From the IMG/VR virus record IMGVR_UViG_3300019768_000015, positions 1-30,816 of that record: 30,816 nt of DNA; one strand, written 5' to 3'. Origin of the DNA: a virus. Made by a program: the position numbers and the translations under genes. The first letter of the stretch is position 1. The number at the start of each line of letters is the position of its first letter. The notes beneath the pieces were generated by a model. That model ran no database searches. It saw only the letters and a list, made by a program, of their open reading frames with translations, and was not told the origin of the DNA. Of this stretch, positions 1,924 through 12,627 are shown piece by piece.

Positions 1924-2190
1924 ATGAGTAAAAGATTATTAAAATCTTATTCTATTGTATTAGCTGTAGTAATCGTATTAGTTGCAGTTTTGGGGGTTGC
2001 ATTATATCAACCCTCAATTCACACAACAACCATAGAGGAATTAACTGAAATTAACGGCATAGGCGAGTATTACGCACAATCTATAGTAACATACCTAGAA
2101 AACAATCCCGATTGTTCTATAGAGGATTTAGACGATATAAAGTATATTGGTGACAGTGTACTGAGTAAGTTAAGAAAGAGGTATAGATGA
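1924..2190 (+). CDS. Membrane-anchored helix-hairpin-helix (ComEA-like) protein
   Basis: The 88-residue product starts with a short basic stretch (MSKRLLKSYS), then a hydrophobic span (residues 11-28), then a helix-hairpin-helix region (residues 35-88) with the motifs ELTEINGIGEYYAQ and DLDDIKYIGDSVLSKLRKR. This order is that of ComEA, the membrane-tethered DNA receptor of competent Gram-positive bacteria, so the HhH domain should face outward. It sits between the XhlA-like gene and the endolysin, overlapping the latter by ATGA. In other proteins HhH domains bind DNA backbones without sequence preference. Whether this one binds DNA, affects entry of other phage DNA, or serves lysis is unknown. 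Confidence 0.75.
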   Translation: MSKRLLKSYSIVLAVVIVLVAVLGVALYQPSIHTTTIEELTEINGIGEYYAQSIVTYLENNPDCSIEDLDDIKYIGDSVLSKLRKRYR

Positions 2191-3624: not shown

Positions 3625-3647
3625 TAAAAAACACCCCTAAGGATGTT
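3625..3647 (-). terminator. Terminator of the minus-strand radical SAM cassette
   Basis: On the minus strand AACATCC pairs with GGGTGTT (7 bp, one wobble) around a TTAG loop and is followed by six T. The stem starts within the stop codon region of the 39-codon gene, so the transcript ends immediately after it. This places the small gene inside the same transcription unit as the radical SAM gene. Confidence 0.75.
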
Positions 3648-3765
3648 ATTCAGTAATTATGCTAAGTTGTCCGCAAGCTGCACCGTTATCTATTTCACTT
3701 TGTGTTGCAATAGCTACAGCATAATCATATCCGTTTTCTTGTAACTGTTTTTTTATATCGTTCAT
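3646..3765 (-). CDS. 39-residue RlmN/Cfr-type catalytic-cysteine tail, encoded separately
   Basis: The product contains EIDNGAACGQLSII, which matches the C-terminal motif of RlmN rRNA/tRNA methyltransferases (in E. coli, DDIDAACGQLAG around Cys355, the cysteine methylated during catalysis). The residues before it (IKKQLQENGYDYAVAIAT) align with the helix and strand that precede this motif in RlmN. The neighbouring upstream gene encodes the rest of that fold but stops short of the motif. The gene is in a different frame, begins 8 nt after the upstream stop, and has AGGAGG 5 nt before its ATG. It is either a true second subunit or the product of a frameshift in a once continuous gene. The motif identification is firm; the separate function is inference. 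Confidence 0.8.
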   Translation of the reverse strand: MNDIKKQLQENGYDYAVAIATQSEIDNGAACGQLSIITE

Positions 3766-3773
3766 AATTCCTC

Positions 3774-4559
3774 CTACTTCAAGTTAGTTGTTTCTATCAC
3801 CCCATTACCCATATTGTTCTCACTCGATACACTGTTAGGGTTTATTGGTGATAGTTTAATAAAAAAATCATCTTTATTAAAATACTGTTTAATAATATTA
3901 ATGTCAAAATCCGATTTATCTACCAACGTCATATTAATTGTTGTTTTTAAATGTGATTTAGTTTTTACTTGACCGAGTTCTTTTATTGACATTTTATTTT
4001 TTATAGGAATAAGCCAATCTCTCTTATTCTCTATGAGTGAGTGTAGTGATAATTGCAATGTAATATTATCTTTTATCCATGAAAAATCTGAATTTTTTAA
4101 TCCCACTGTAGATATATAGTGATGCACATTAGGATATTTGTTATCTATTATATCTATTGCTTTTTTTACTTCTTGTATGTTTAAGAAGGGCTCGCCCATT
4201 CTAGTATAGTTAATCTTATTTTCCTTTGCTTCTCCGAATTTAAAACCTTTGTTTTTTTCTATTACAAATTCAATTTGAGATACTATTTCATCTGCGGTTA
4301 AATTTCTCCATTTTTTTAATTGACCAGTAGCGCAAAATTTGCATCCTACAGGGCAACCAGACATACAGCTAACTCCTATCATGTACCTTTCTGTGTAGTC
4401 TCCTAAACCTTCATCTTTTAATTTGTTTGTGTGATCATTAATGCAATTTTTCGTATAATAAGGCAAATGTGTTGATGTTACCTCTATAGGATAATTATCC
4501 CATGTTTCTAAAGCATACACAACACCATTAGAAAACTCTTTCCTTTTTAATTCTTTCAT
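3774..4559 (-). CDS. RlmN/Cfr-like radical SAM methyltransferase, N-terminal and core part
   Basis: The start at 4559 is chosen because GGAGG (4565-4569) lies 5 nt before it; the in-frame ATG at 4571 contributes bases to that site. The 261 residues contain the radical SAM 4Fe-4S motif C69-x3-C73-x2-C76 (CPVGCKFCATG), MGEPFLN at 121-127 (SAM binding), STVG, LQLSLHS, a WLIPI strand and KLSPINP, all in RlmN order. RlmN methylates C2 of A2503 in 23S rRNA and A37 of some tRNAs; Cfr methylates C8 of A2503. Oddities: no RlmN N-terminal accessory domain; the position of RlmN Cys118 is Gly62, with a Cys at 65 instead; no cysteine follows C76. The missing C-terminal Cys motif is in the next gene. It is the only minus-strand unit in the window. 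Confidence 0.85.
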   Translation of the reverse strand: MKELKRKEFSNGVVYALETWDNYPIEVTSTHLPYYTKNCINDHTNKLKDEGLGDYTERYMIGVSCMSGCPVGCKFCATGQLKKWRNLTADEIVSQIEFVIEKNKGFKFGEAKENKINYTRMGEPFLNIQEVKKAIDIIDNKYPNVHHYISTVGLKNSDFSWIKDNITLQLSLHSLIENKRDWLIPIKNKMSIKELGQVKTKSHLKTTINMTLVDKSDFDINIIKQYFNKDDFFIKLSPINPNSVSSENNMGNGVIETTNLK

Positions 4560-4572
4560 AATAACCTCCATT

Positions 4573-4597
4573 AAAAAAACTCCTCACGTATGAGAAG
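4573..4597 (-). terminator. Attenuator-like terminator just upstream of the radical SAM gene
   Basis: On the minus strand CTTCTCA (4597-4591) pairs with TGAGGAG (4586-4580) around a TACG tetraloop, followed by seven T (4579-4573). The ribosome binding site of the radical SAM gene starts 3 nt later. A complete intrinsic terminator between promoter and gene suggests conditional read-through. Its 5' arm begins directly after the stop codon of the upstream leader ORF, so a ribosome held there would cover the arm. Confidence 0.7.
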
Positions 4598-4660
4598 CTA
4601 ACTAATGCTATTAGTGACAAGAATCGTGTTCAAGCCAGTAATGCTGTATTCGATTAACAT
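4598..4660 (-). CDS. Candidate 20-residue leader peptide of the radical SAM cassette
   Basis: ATG at 4660 opens 20 codons (MLIEYSITGLNTILVTNSIS) and ends with TAG at 4600-4598, abutting the 5' arm of the attenuator hairpin. A small hairpin (ACTAAT/ATTAGT, 4601-4615) covers its last codons, and another (ATTAAC/GTTAAT, 4653-4667) covers its start codon. The position is that expected for a regulatory leader ORF of an attenuated resistance-type gene. No good ribosome binding site precedes it, which weakens the call; a 20-codon ORF can occur by chance. Confidence 0.4.
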   Translation of the reverse strand: MLIEYSITGLNTILVTNSIS

Positions 4661-4693
4661 TGTTAATATAGGACGAAGCACGACCTTATAATA

Positions 4694-4722
4694 AGTGTAA
4701 ACCTGATCTATAAATAAATCAA
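4694..4722 (-). promoter_or_regulatory. Candidate promoter of the radical SAM cassette
   Basis: On the minus strand TTGATT (4722-4717), a 17-nt spacer and TACACT (4699-4694) give a moderate sigma-A match. The expected start near 4687 leaves a leader of about 128 nt before the radical SAM gene, containing the leader ORF and the attenuator hairpin. Confidence 0.45.
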
Positions 4723-4723
4723 C

Positions 4724-4737
4724 GCAAAATATTTTGC
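4724..4737. promoter_or_regulatory. Perfect 14-bp palindrome between divergent promoters
   Basis: GCAAAATATTTTGC is a perfect inverted repeat. It lies 1 bp beyond the -35 box of the minus-strand radical SAM promoter and 22 bp before the extended -10 of the plus-strand candidate small RNA. A dimeric regulator bound here could act on both. The regulator is unknown. Confidence 0.5.
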
Positions 4738-4759
4738 ACTTTTAAATCATATTTACCTA

Positions 4760-4768
4760 TGCTACAAT
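4760..4768 (+). promoter_or_regulatory. Extended -10 promoter of candidate small RNA
   Basis: TGCTACAAT is an extended -10 (TGnTACAAT) with a weak TTTAAA-like -35 about 16 nt upstream. Transcription would start near 4775, heading away from the radical SAM cassette. Confidence 0.45.
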
Positions 4769-4774
4769 ATACAT

Positions 4775-4927
4775 ACACATTGGGTGTCACCCATGTATCT
4801 TATTACCTTCACTATCTCTTATCGTAACGGAGATATAAGGTAACATCAAGGTCTATTACATCAAAGAAGCCTTGTCCCTCTTTAGAGTGGAATATTAAGA
4901 ATCCTTATGGTTTTAGGGTTCTTTTTT
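4775..4927 (+). ncRNA. Candidate ~150-nt structured small RNA with its own terminator
   Basis: No protein gene fits here. Hairpins follow one another: ACAT-GGGTG/CACCC-ATGT (4777-4796, one bulged T); a long two-part stem TTACCTT/AAGGTAA enclosing TATCTC/GAGATA (4803-4843); CAAGG/CCTTG (4847-4874); CTCTTTAGAG (4878-4887); and the terminator stem AAGAATCC/GGGTTCTT (4897-4904 with 4916-4923) with six T. An extended -10 promoter lies just upstream. The arrangement of promoter, compact hairpins and terminator is that of an independently transcribed RNA. I do not recognise the family. A 14-codon ORF from 4793 lacks a ribosome binding site. Confidence 0.5.
4897..4927 (+). terminator. Terminator of the candidate small RNA
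   Basis: AAGAATCC pairs with GGGTTCTT (8 bp, one wobble) around an 11-nt loop and is followed by six T. It is the only strong plus-strand terminator between 4600 and 5700, so it separates the small RNA from the tRNA unit. Confidence 0.7.
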
Positions 4928-5320
4928 ATTGGGTTTTAATAGAAGTTTGAAAGATTTATTCGTAATTTGATAGAGTTAACCCCTATACACCCAAAAACAA
5001 ATAGTTTAAAAGGTATAAAGAGGTTAATTTTAGTTTGATGAGTTTACACGCAACCGCACTAGACTATATTTATTAACATGCTAATACTCAAACGATTACT
5101 TTTCCGTCCGCAATCTCGTATTAGTTCCCTTGCATAAGCACCAGAAAACCACACCTCGCCTTTTAATTGGTAGCGACAACCTAACACCACAGATCAACAA
5201 GTAAATATAGTAACCCCTCACTGTGTTTGTTGATTTTACGTTTAGGCTCAACTTACCTTAGTGTTTAACGTGTTTTCTATTACCCACGACCATATAAAAA
5301 AGCCTAACCGATGGCTAGAC
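4928..5320. other. Non-coding structured interval between small RNA and tRNA unit
   Basis: No ORF with a ribosome binding site is present on either strand. Visible pairing: TTAACC/GGTTAA (4976-4981 with 5022-5027) enclosing TATAC/GTATA (4984-4988 with 5013-5017); CTAATAC/GTATTAG (5081-5087 with 5118-5124) enclosing GATT/AATC; and two mutually exclusive helices, CACAG/CTGTG (5188-5192 with 5221-5225) and ATCAACAA/TTGTTGAT (5193-5200 with 5227-5234). The plus strand is C-rich and the minus strand G-rich here, so the functional strand is uncertain. Confidence 0.5.
5043..5070 (+). promoter_or_regulatory. Candidate promoter inside the non-coding region
   Basis: TTTACA, a 16-nt spacer and TATATT give a good sigma-A match with no gene downstream until the tRNA. 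If used, it would make a transcript of about 680 nt running through the tRNA to the terminator at 5724. Confidence 0.4.
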
Positions 5321-5349
5321 TTGAAATATCATGTAATATCGTGTACAAT
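5321..5349 (+). promoter_or_regulatory. Promoter of the tRNA unit
   Basis: TTGAAA (5321-5326), a 17-nt spacer and TACAAT (5344-5349). The expected start near 5356 gives a ~145-nt leader before the tRNA. The leader has two strong hairpins: CTTATCAGGT/ACCT-a-GATAAG at 5408-5434 and TAGGGG/CCCCTA at 5472-5494. Confidence 0.6.
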
Positions 5350-5500: not shown

Positions 5501-5575
5501 GTAGATATACGCAAGCGATATGCGACGAGTTTTGGGAACTCGAAGTCCTAGGTTCGATTCCTAGTATCTGCACCA
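5501..5575 (+). tRNA. tRNA-Pro (anticodon UGG), CCA encoded
   Basis: A full cloverleaf can be drawn: acceptor GTAGATA/TATCTGC with A73 and encoded CCA; D stem CGCA/TGCG; anticodon stem CGAGT/ACTCG with loop TTTGGGA, giving anticodon TGG at 5533-5535 and G37 as in bacterial tRNA-Pro; T arm CTAGG-TTCGATT-CCTAG. It would read CCA and probably other Pro codons. Two oddities: the 7-nt D loop AGCGATA lacks the usual GG (the base at 19 appears to be A, so the G19-C56 elbow pair is lost), and the acceptor begins G1-C72, whereas bacterial tRNA-Pro normally has C1-G72. Confidence 0.88.
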
Positions 5576-5723
5576 AGACGTTTCTTGTCTACGGTCAAAC
5601 GGCAAGCGGTGGTAGAGTCTCCTGAGAATGTCGAAAAACAAAAGACTAACAAACAATTGAATCCTAGAGATATCCGTCCCATGTAGAGGGCTGTTGCAAG
5701 TGAAAGTCTTGTCAATTGTGATT
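5576..5723 (+). ncRNA. Structured 3' tail of the tRNA transcript
   Basis: No ORF with a ribosome binding site is seen. AGAC/GTCT pairs right after the CCA end (5576-5590). AAGACT (5642-5647) can pair either with AGTCT (5616-5620) or with AGTCTT (5705-5710), and CAATTG occurs twice (5654-5659, 5713-5718) just inside and outside that helix, so alternative folds are possible. The stretch is transcribed with the tRNA up to the terminator at 5724. It contains no second complete cloverleaf. Confidence 0.4.
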
Positions 5724-5757
5724 AATCGTTTCTTTTAATAGAAGCGATTTTTTATTT
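5724..5757 (+). terminator. Terminator of the tRNA/structured-RNA unit
   Basis: AATCGTTTCT (5724-5733) pairs with AGAAGCGATT (5740-5749) over 10 bp with one wobble, loop TTTAAT, followed by six T. It is one of the strongest terminators in the window and isolates the RNA unit from the early promoter at 5779. Confidence 0.85.
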
Positions 5758-11359: not shown

Positions 11360-11699
11360 AGACCAATTACAAGGTGCTACAGCTATATTCCTAATATTAA
11401 TCATTACATCAATATCTATATCTTCATTAGTAACATACATAACATTTAAAAAACTTGAATGTAAAGTAGCTGTATATGTAGTTAAGAATAATGATGTAGT
11501 AATAGATTTAAATGATTATAAAATTGATCAGAACAAATTAAACAAAGCATTTAGTGACATGATAAACATGAACAACGAGTTAATCAACAGAAATTCAAAG
11601 CGTATAACACAAACTAACATAGACCTGGACGAAGTGTCACACCAGGAATGTAAAACGCACATAGAGGAAATATGGGACGTATTAGAAAGGGTTGAGTGA
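11349..11699 (+). CDS. Single-span membrane protein with extracytoplasmic domain
   Basis: The ATG at 11349 is chosen over the GTG at 11337 because GAGGT lies 5 nt before it. Of 116 residues, 11-35 form a strong membrane span (AIFLILIITSISISSLVTYI), and residues ~40-116 form a helical soluble domain beginning CKVAVYVVKNNDVVIDLNDY. Basic residues before the span suggest the C-terminal part is outside. It lies directly before the second radical SAM gene. Expression from an early promoter suggests a host-envelope role such as exclusion, but there is no direct evidence. Confidence 0.55.
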   Translation: MKIKDQLQGATAIFLILIITSISISSLVTYITFKKLECKVAVYVVKNNDVVIDLNDYKIDQNKLNKAFSDMINMNNELINRNSKRITQTNIDLDEVSHQECKTHIEEIWDVLERVE

Positions 11700-11700
11700 T

Positions 11701-12627
11701 ATGAAAATAGGGATGATCACAGATGCGCCTATGCATAACCTAGCTTTAATGAAATTATCTACTTATCATAAATCTTTGGGTGATAGCGTAGAACTGATTA
11801 ATAAAGATAAAATCCGATCATTTGATAAGGTATATGGTTCTTATATATTTACTTGGAACAGAAACAAAGCTTTAGAGTTAAAACAAGTATACGGAGACAA
11901 AGCTATTATAAGCGGTACTGGTGTAGATGTTACTGACAAACTACCCAAACATGTAGAAATGTTAAAACCTGATTACTCGCTTTTTGATTTAGATTACGGG
12001 GTGGGATTTACTAGAAGAGGTTGTATTAATAAATGTAGTTTCTGTGTAGTTCCAAAAAAAGAAATATGGAAAGAAGATACAGCAATAAAAGATATTATTA
12101 ATCCTTTAAGCAACAGAGTTTATATATTAGACAATAATTTTTCTAATGATCCTAATTTTGAATTAAAAGTAAAAGAATTTAACAATAGAAACTTAATTGT
12201 AAGCCTTCAATCGGGAGTAGATGTTAGAACTATGACGTGCGAAAAAGCTAGATTGCTTTCAACTATAAATCATGAAAAGCAGTTACACATAGCTTGGGAC
12301 AATTATAATCATAAAAAATCTGTATTAAAAGGTATTGATTATTTGCTTAATTACTTTAAACCATCAAAATTAATGTGTTATGTATTAATTGGATTTAATT
12401 CAACTAGAGAAGAAGATTTTTTAAGAATTGACGAACTCAGACGATTAAAAATTGATCCTTATGTAATGATGTATCGTGATCCTTATGATCCTAATTATAA
12501 ATTTGATCGAATGGATATGCATTTTAAAAATTGGGTTAATGGACACGCTTATAAATCTGTACCTTTTGAAGAGTTTGATCGTGCTATTAATGAAATTAAA
12601 AAAAGACAACAACTATCGTTATTTTAG
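11701..12627 (+). CDS. Radical SAM protein with B12-domain-like N terminus
   Basis: The start at 11701 follows the previous stop by 1 nt, with AAAGGG upstream. The 308-residue protein has a Rossmann-like N-terminal region (residues 1-95: MKIGMITDAPMHNLALMKL, then YIFTWNRNKA and IISGTGVDV) reminiscent of the cobalamin-domain remnant of many radical SAM enzymes, followed by the 4Fe-4S motif C108-x3-C112-x2-C115 in GFTRRGCINKCSFCVVPKKE. Later blocks (YILDNNF, VSLQSGVDVRTM, MCYVLIGF) fit a radical SAM barrel. The residues usual for cobalamin binding are not evident. The substrate is unknown; a DNA-methyltransferase gene lies downstream, so nucleic acid modification is one option. Confidence 0.75.
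   Translation: MKIGMITDAPMHNLALMKLSTYHKSLGDSVELINKDKIRSFDKVYGSYIFTWNRNKALELKQVYGDKAIISGTGVDVTDKLPKHVEMLKPDYSLFDLDYGVGFTRRGCINKCSFCVVPKKEIWKEDTAIKDIINPLSNRVYILDNNFSNDPNFELKVKEFNNRNLIVSLQSGVDVRTMTCEKARLLSTINHEKQLHIAWDNYNHKKSVLKGIDYLLNYFKPSKLMCYVLIGFNSTREEDFLRIDELRRLKIDPYVMMYRDPYDPNYKFDRMDMHFKNWVNGHAYKSVPFEEFDRAINEIKKRQQLSLF

Follow-up and report, generated by a model that had tools for sequence, protein, structure and literature searches.

A conserved RlmN-like radical-SAM gene pair in phages, probably a two-component system, and a terminator-like hairpin in the 5′ leader of one member

A stretch of viral DNA of 30,816 nt (IMG/VR record IMGVR_UViG_3300019768_000015, positions 1 to 30,816; the whole stretch is called the window below) carries on its minus strand a radical-SAM enzyme gene and, directly behind it, a small gene. 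Both genes are conserved, they are homologous to complementary parts of RlmN, and the second catalytic cysteine of RlmN is absent from the pair. Minus-strand positions 4714-3630 probably form a self-contained phage cassette coding for a two-component RlmN-like radical-SAM system. An earlier note on this DNA had described an attenuator in front of the enzyme gene, and the small ORF at 3765-3646 went unremarked there. The larger finding lies beyond the attenuator: RlmN-type radical-SAM enzymes exist in a conserved variant made up of two genes, a widespread and apparently undescribed phage system. No description of a split RlmN-like system was found in the open-licence literature, and PADLOC revealed no convincing defence family for the gene pair.

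RlmN and Cfr are class A radical-SAM methylases of 23S rRNA A2503 and tRNA A37, and their methyl-carrying cysteine is built into the polypeptide of the enzyme. In the case of RlmN, C355 receives a methyl group from one SAM, the radical derived from a second SAM leads to a methylene radical, and this adds to adenosine; C118 (C105 in Cfr) is needed for resolution of the cross-link (PMC5130265, PMC9692996, PMC13001441). The C118A mutant of RlmN traps the covalent cross-link (PMC5130265, PMC9692996).

The enzyme gene of the phage (3774-4559, minus strand; start codon ATG at 4559, alternative start at 4571) codes for an RlmN-like radical-SAM core enzyme of 261 aa and is preceded by the Shine-Dalgarno sequence GGAGG (4565-4569). 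RlmN fold and radical-SAM core were both found, and the CX3CX2C motif is represented by C69/C73/C76. The profile of the enzyme family aligned in hhalign with columns 75-297 of the RlmN profile (E 9e-40). A single-chain AlphaFold2 model (pLDDT 93.5) gave E. coli RlmN as best structural match with Z 22.3, rmsd 2.5 and 225 residues aligned. Residues 1-257 of the model lie on RlmN 80-325; residue 1 aligns with RlmN residue 80, the N-terminal accessory (RNA-binding) domain being missing, and the C355 tail stays uncovered. The chain ends before the catalytic ACGQL motif. The position of RlmN C118 is occupied by glycine in 68/68 enzyme relatives and by cysteine in 19/19 true RlmN, and the three cluster ligands are the only conserved cysteines among the 68 relatives. 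Scores against the RlmN and Cfr models remain far below the cut-offs (81.6 vs 290 bits for TIGR00048). The relationship to RlmN/Cfr that had been proposed is therefore real as a distant kinship, but a standard enzyme of this type is not encoded, since the defining residues and the accessory domain are missing.

The small gene (3646-3765, minus strand) follows directly downstream in a different frame and codes for a cysteine protein of 39 aa, MNDIKKQLQENGYDYAVAIATQSEIDNGAACGQLSIITE, corresponding to the C-terminal helix, strand and catalytic-Cys loop of RlmN. It possesses its own strong ribosome binding site (GGAGG, 3770-3774, −10.2 kcal/mol), which shares one base with the stop codon of the enzyme gene, and a predicted intrinsic terminator at 3630-3647 ends the two-gene unit. 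The small family matched columns 307-345 of the RlmN profile in hhalign (E 2e-6, probability 89%, a short match of 39 columns). Together, the profiles of enzyme and small protein tile RlmN from the core to the C-terminus, minus the N-terminal domain. In 54 sequences the small protein is conserved along its whole length and shows no variable core; G12, A18, A20, T21, E24, A29, A30, C31, G32 and Q33 are invariant. In the single-chain structure prediction (pLDDT 86.7) it shows a helix, an extended segment and a loop, and the protein is acidic with a pI of 4.2. Searches revealed no significant NCBIfam match, no PHROGs family (54 members searched), no PDB relative by sequence and, for the one relative tested, no Pfam match.

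Both genes occur in 102 of 106 phage and MAG loci and are never fused to each other; an ACGQ motif inside the enzyme ORF was found in none of the family loci. In 90 of the 106 loci a small AACGQ ORF is located close to the enzyme gene, and in 58 of them it is directly adjacent. Non-adjacent small ORFs are separated by up to 2.9 kb, two of them being located upstream of the enzyme gene. Twelve of the remaining 16 loci carry the small ORF elsewhere on the record, and it was not found in four of the 106, among them a truncated contig and an incomplete MAG. The enzyme has relatives in Bacteroides phage tikkala (64%, crAss-like) and Moorella phage MTATph1 (43%), in Pectobacterium, Yersinia and Vibrio phages, in further IMG/VR contigs and in MAG and genome contigs including archaeal MAGs. 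This occurrence across diverse phages and archaeal MAG contigs points towards broad selection. In Vibrio phage D479 the small unit is duplicated in tandem within one ORF, and in locus L146 it forms part of a fusion with another radical-SAM protein; duplication and fusion fit a carrier domain.

Several neighbours recur in these loci. In 20 of the 106 loci a nicotinamide phosphoribosyltransferase-like gene is located no more than about 4 kb from the radical-SAM gene (such neighbours were seen in L015-L018, L104, L105, L125, L144, L148 and L161) and an NMN adenylyltransferase-like gene occurs in 12, an association with phage NAD salvage genes. In L009 (3779-4087 and 4093-4977) a second radical-SAM gene and a peptide of ~100 aa accompany the pair, as is also the case in L115, L128, L142, L143 and L146. 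The ~100-aa peptides of related loci end in D[PG]C...C and resemble a RiPP precursor.

A tree of four RlmN-like groups places the split family in one group (99/94) adjoining a single-chain family that ends in SNCGQ (100/96); the tree is midpoint-rooted, and calling the latter a sister presumes a root on the RlmN side. The tail of this sister family (alignment A6), ...GYDVILSIGELEENxIGSNCGQ, matches the small protein (E 4e-6). In most of 12 loci its operon contains an isochorismatase-domain hydrolase and a thioredoxin-reductase-like flavoprotein. This conserved three-gene operon with an enzyme devoid of C118 was observed in L045, L055, L057, L058, L059, L063 and L091.

In the phage itself, the cassette sits between lysis genes and early genes, and the rest of the phage is plus-strand. 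A relative of the virion protein (L021, 59%) comes without the cassette and has another gene set after the lysis genes, and the relatives of the portal protein are short contigs. In the relatives inspected gene by gene, the enzyme gene stands among neighbours of the same strand. Just before the endolysin gene the window codes for a small protein (1924-2190, plus strand) in which a hydrophobic segment at the N-terminus is combined with a ComEA-like helix-hairpin-helix domain. The phage also carries a second, unrelated radical-SAM protein (11692-12627, plus strand; phrog_9298), for which no Pfam or NCBIfam match was obtained.

According to the mechanism that we propose, the first gene would provide the catalytic core, with TIM-barrel, [4Fe-4S]/SAM site and N-terminal beta extension, and the second the counterpart of the last helix, last strand and catalytic-cysteine loop (ACGQL) of RlmN. 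We infer that small protein and core associate: the small protein would dock on the core enzyme and its single cysteine would accept a methyl group from one SAM. The second SAM would then give the 5′-deoxyadenosyl radical, turning the methyl-cysteine into a methylene radical that attacks the substrate, and the thiol would be supplied in trans by the small protein, an exchangeable carrier. A trans-supplied equivalent of C355 is the best reading, since the C118 position is glycine in 68/68 relatives and the ACGQ cysteine is invariant in 54/54. As there is no second conserved cysteine, resolution of the adduct must differ from that in RlmN; without a C118-type cysteine, the known RlmN cycle could not finish. 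It is quite unlikely that the small carrier stays covalently joined to its target via a methylene thioether, in which case a cross-link such as that trapped by the C118A mutant would be the natural product. If true, a nucleobase, metabolite or protein would thereby be tagged with a phage peptide. In 42 of the 106 loci there is a second radical-SAM gene downstream, often between enzyme and small gene; the partner of the small protein, or the enzyme modifying it, might instead be the product of this second gene. Due to the missing accessory domain and the acidic small partner an rRNA substrate is not favoured, and ribosome modification as the function is not supported.

Upstream of the enzyme gene, the hairpin CTTCTCA-TACG-TGAGGAG begins at base 4597 of the minus strand, with 7 bp, a TACG loop and seven T thereafter (4579-4573). 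The 7 bp alone fold with −6.0 kcal/mol; with weaker outer pairs the stem comprises 9 bp (4599-4578) and −8.7 kcal/mol. The complete intrinsic-terminator-like element with its seven U covers 4571-4599 in the 5′ leader, with 18 nt between the hairpin and the radical-SAM gene. When the 271 nt before the enzyme gene were shuffled 2000 times with dinucleotides preserved, a hairpin and U-run of equal quality came to lie no more than 60 nt from the start codon in 0.2%, and hence the hairpin is likely real and above chance. Any transcript initiated further upstream has to cross this terminator-like hairpin, as it is situated in the 5′ leader. The simplest reading of the element at 4599-4571 is a somewhat leaky terminator that belongs to the leader of the cassette itself and holds expression low, and the 5′ terminator probably limits expression of the cassette. 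A sigma-70 scan of the minus strand (4560-5062) yielded no promoter that passes. The candidate promoter pointed out earlier, TTTATA-18-TATAAG (4685-4714, minus strand), is visible in the letters, but it is weak and absent from the scan list.

Alternatively, the hairpin could be unrelated to control of the enzyme and instead terminate a short RNA of the minus strand or stabilise a 5′ end, with the gene being transcribed from an unrecognised phage promoter. The 1.2 kb of non-coding structured DNA upstream, which contains other terminators, is consistent with this, as is the finding of no recognisable promoter for the enzyme gene. However, only 18 nt between hairpin and start codon leave no space for a promoter downstream, and this explanation appears somewhat doubtful to us.

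Further elements were observed in the surroundings of the cassette. A perfect 14-bp palindrome, GCAAAATATTTTGC, lies at 4724-4737 between the plus- and minus-strand units; it is the sole match in the window, with up to 2 mismatches allowed, and is possibly an operator. At 4741-4930 (plus strand), an extended −10 promoter-like site, TTTAAA-16-TACAAT with TG before, precedes ~150 nt containing several hairpins; the final hairpin leads into a U-run, and the folding is more stable than in shuffles (z −2.6). This might be a small RNA without Rfam match; in the Rfam search tRNA alone passed. Within the non-coding region of 1.2 kb there is also a strong minus-strand terminator (5300-5322); no gene on this strand lies upstream of it, which points to an unannotated RNA of that strand. 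The stretch 5501-5749 (plus strand) comprises a tRNA-Pro (TGG) and ~170 nt without gene, with a terminator hairpin at the end.

With regard to the small protein, its role could also be that of a RiPP-like precursor substrate, the cysteine of which is modified by the core or by an accompanying radical-SAM enzyme. Small size, separate coding and one invariant cysteine would agree with such a substrate, and a second radical-SAM gene is near in the 42 of 106 loci mentioned, some of them with ~100-aa peptides ending in DPCxxG...C; in L146 the small unit is even fused to the second radical-SAM enzyme. On the other hand, the small protein is conserved over its full length as part of an enzyme would be, without a variable core, it matches a tail that is in-chain in RlmN and in the sister clade, and the two genes are directly adjacent in 58 loci. 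We therefore regard a precursor as unlikely and prefer the small protein as a cysteine carrier acting in trans.

In the earlier note, hairpin and preceding ORF were interpreted as a leader-peptide attenuator, in which a stall in the 20-codon ORF blocks the terminator and induces a ribosome-modifying enzyme, for instance under an antibiotic. The anatomy described there is correct: the leader ORF runs on the minus strand from ATG 4660 to TAG 4600-4598 (4598-4660, product MLIEYSITGLNTILVTNSIS), its stop abuts the 5′ arm of the hairpin, and transcription from any promoter further upstream would meet the terminator before the gene. Genes of 23S rRNA methylases are known to be controlled in this manner, e.g. 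by ribosome-dependent transcription attenuation at yxjB of B. subtilis (PMC6851288). The deficiency in ribosome binding that the note had conceded is borne out, however, as duplex energies with the 16S 3′ end revealed no Shine-Dalgarno at ATG 4660 (−1.7 kcal/mol) or GTG 4681 (−3.8 kcal/mol), compared with −10.5 for the enzyme gene, −10.2 for the small gene and −6.7 to −11.4 kcal/mol for ten other genes of the window; translation of the ORF is thus improbable. In 4% of the shuffles, an ORF of 20 or more codons with an ATG start ended no further than 5 nt from the hairpin edge, which makes the leader ORF borderline, and the promoter is weak. Folding showed no stable antiterminator competing with the hairpin: the first three bases of its 5′ arm pair upstream with a probability of 0.4-0.5, the others with 0.01-0.2.

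Among the 106 loci, only the window and L028 showed a hairpin with U-run in the 200 nt before the enzyme gene; in L028, a long stem 112-149 nt upstream resembles the terminator of another gene. In the upstream hairpin scan a comparable element was absent in 104 of 105 related loci, so that the conservation across homologues asked for in the note is not seen. The exact pattern of leader and hairpin was not found in viral contigs, a distant blastn of the leader against phage records gave no match, and the collections searched contained no close sibling of the phage's leader. Moreover, the enzyme lacks the defining RlmN/Cfr residues. An antibiotic-induced ribosome modification is not supported, in view of the missing accessory domain, C118-type cysteine and in-chain catalytic C-terminal cysteine, and of the nearest sister family, whose operon comprises a hydrolase and a flavoprotein and not ribosome or resistance genes. 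In total, the terminator inside the 5′ leader stands, stall-induced read-through via a leader peptide is not supported, and the attenuator as a whole is very improbable. Leader translation might still act as a control switch; the structure is anatomically sound, and the regulation is putative and not conserved across relatives.

Decay or frameshifting of an rlmN-like gene, with the two ORFs as its remnants, is hardly credible: they are adjacent, in different frames, and their products together resemble most of RlmN, but the same split is conserved in 102 of 106 loci, the small gene is sometimes more than 1 kb off, duplicated or upstream, and both genes have strong Shine-Dalgarno sequences and conserved sequence. 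Read-through or fusion of the two ORFs was rejected as well, because the frames differ and the ORFs are often far apart.

If the trans-acting carrier is true, class A radical-SAM chemistry would be organised here in a new way, with the methyl-carrying cysteine on a separate 39-residue protein and the second catalytic cysteine dispensed with. The two-gene pair also offers a simple test system for how the covalent intermediate is resolved. As a caution, phage genes of the split family should not be labelled as Cfr-like resistance genes.

Taken as a whole, the system shares with RlmN and Cfr the core fold, CX3CX2C, the GEP motif, the beta extension and the ACGQL loop. In contrast to these enzymes, ACGQL resides on a separate protein, the resolving cysteine C118/C105 and the N-terminal accessory domain are missing, and the small partner is acidic. 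The leader resembles yxjB-type attenuators in that a short ORF and then a terminator precede the gene of a putative methylase (PMC6851288); it differs in having no ribosome binding site and no conservation, with stalling and ribosome target putative. A further family (alignment A7), ending in GGGCGQLW and including members from Salmonella phage Arash and Stenotrophomonas phage ANB28, is likewise phage-borne and RlmN-like, but both catalytic cysteines are located in one chain. The sister family from bacteria and archaea is a near relative of the core (E 6e-53) and, similar to the phage enzyme, has no C118; it differs in being a single polypeptide with the catalytic tail in cis.
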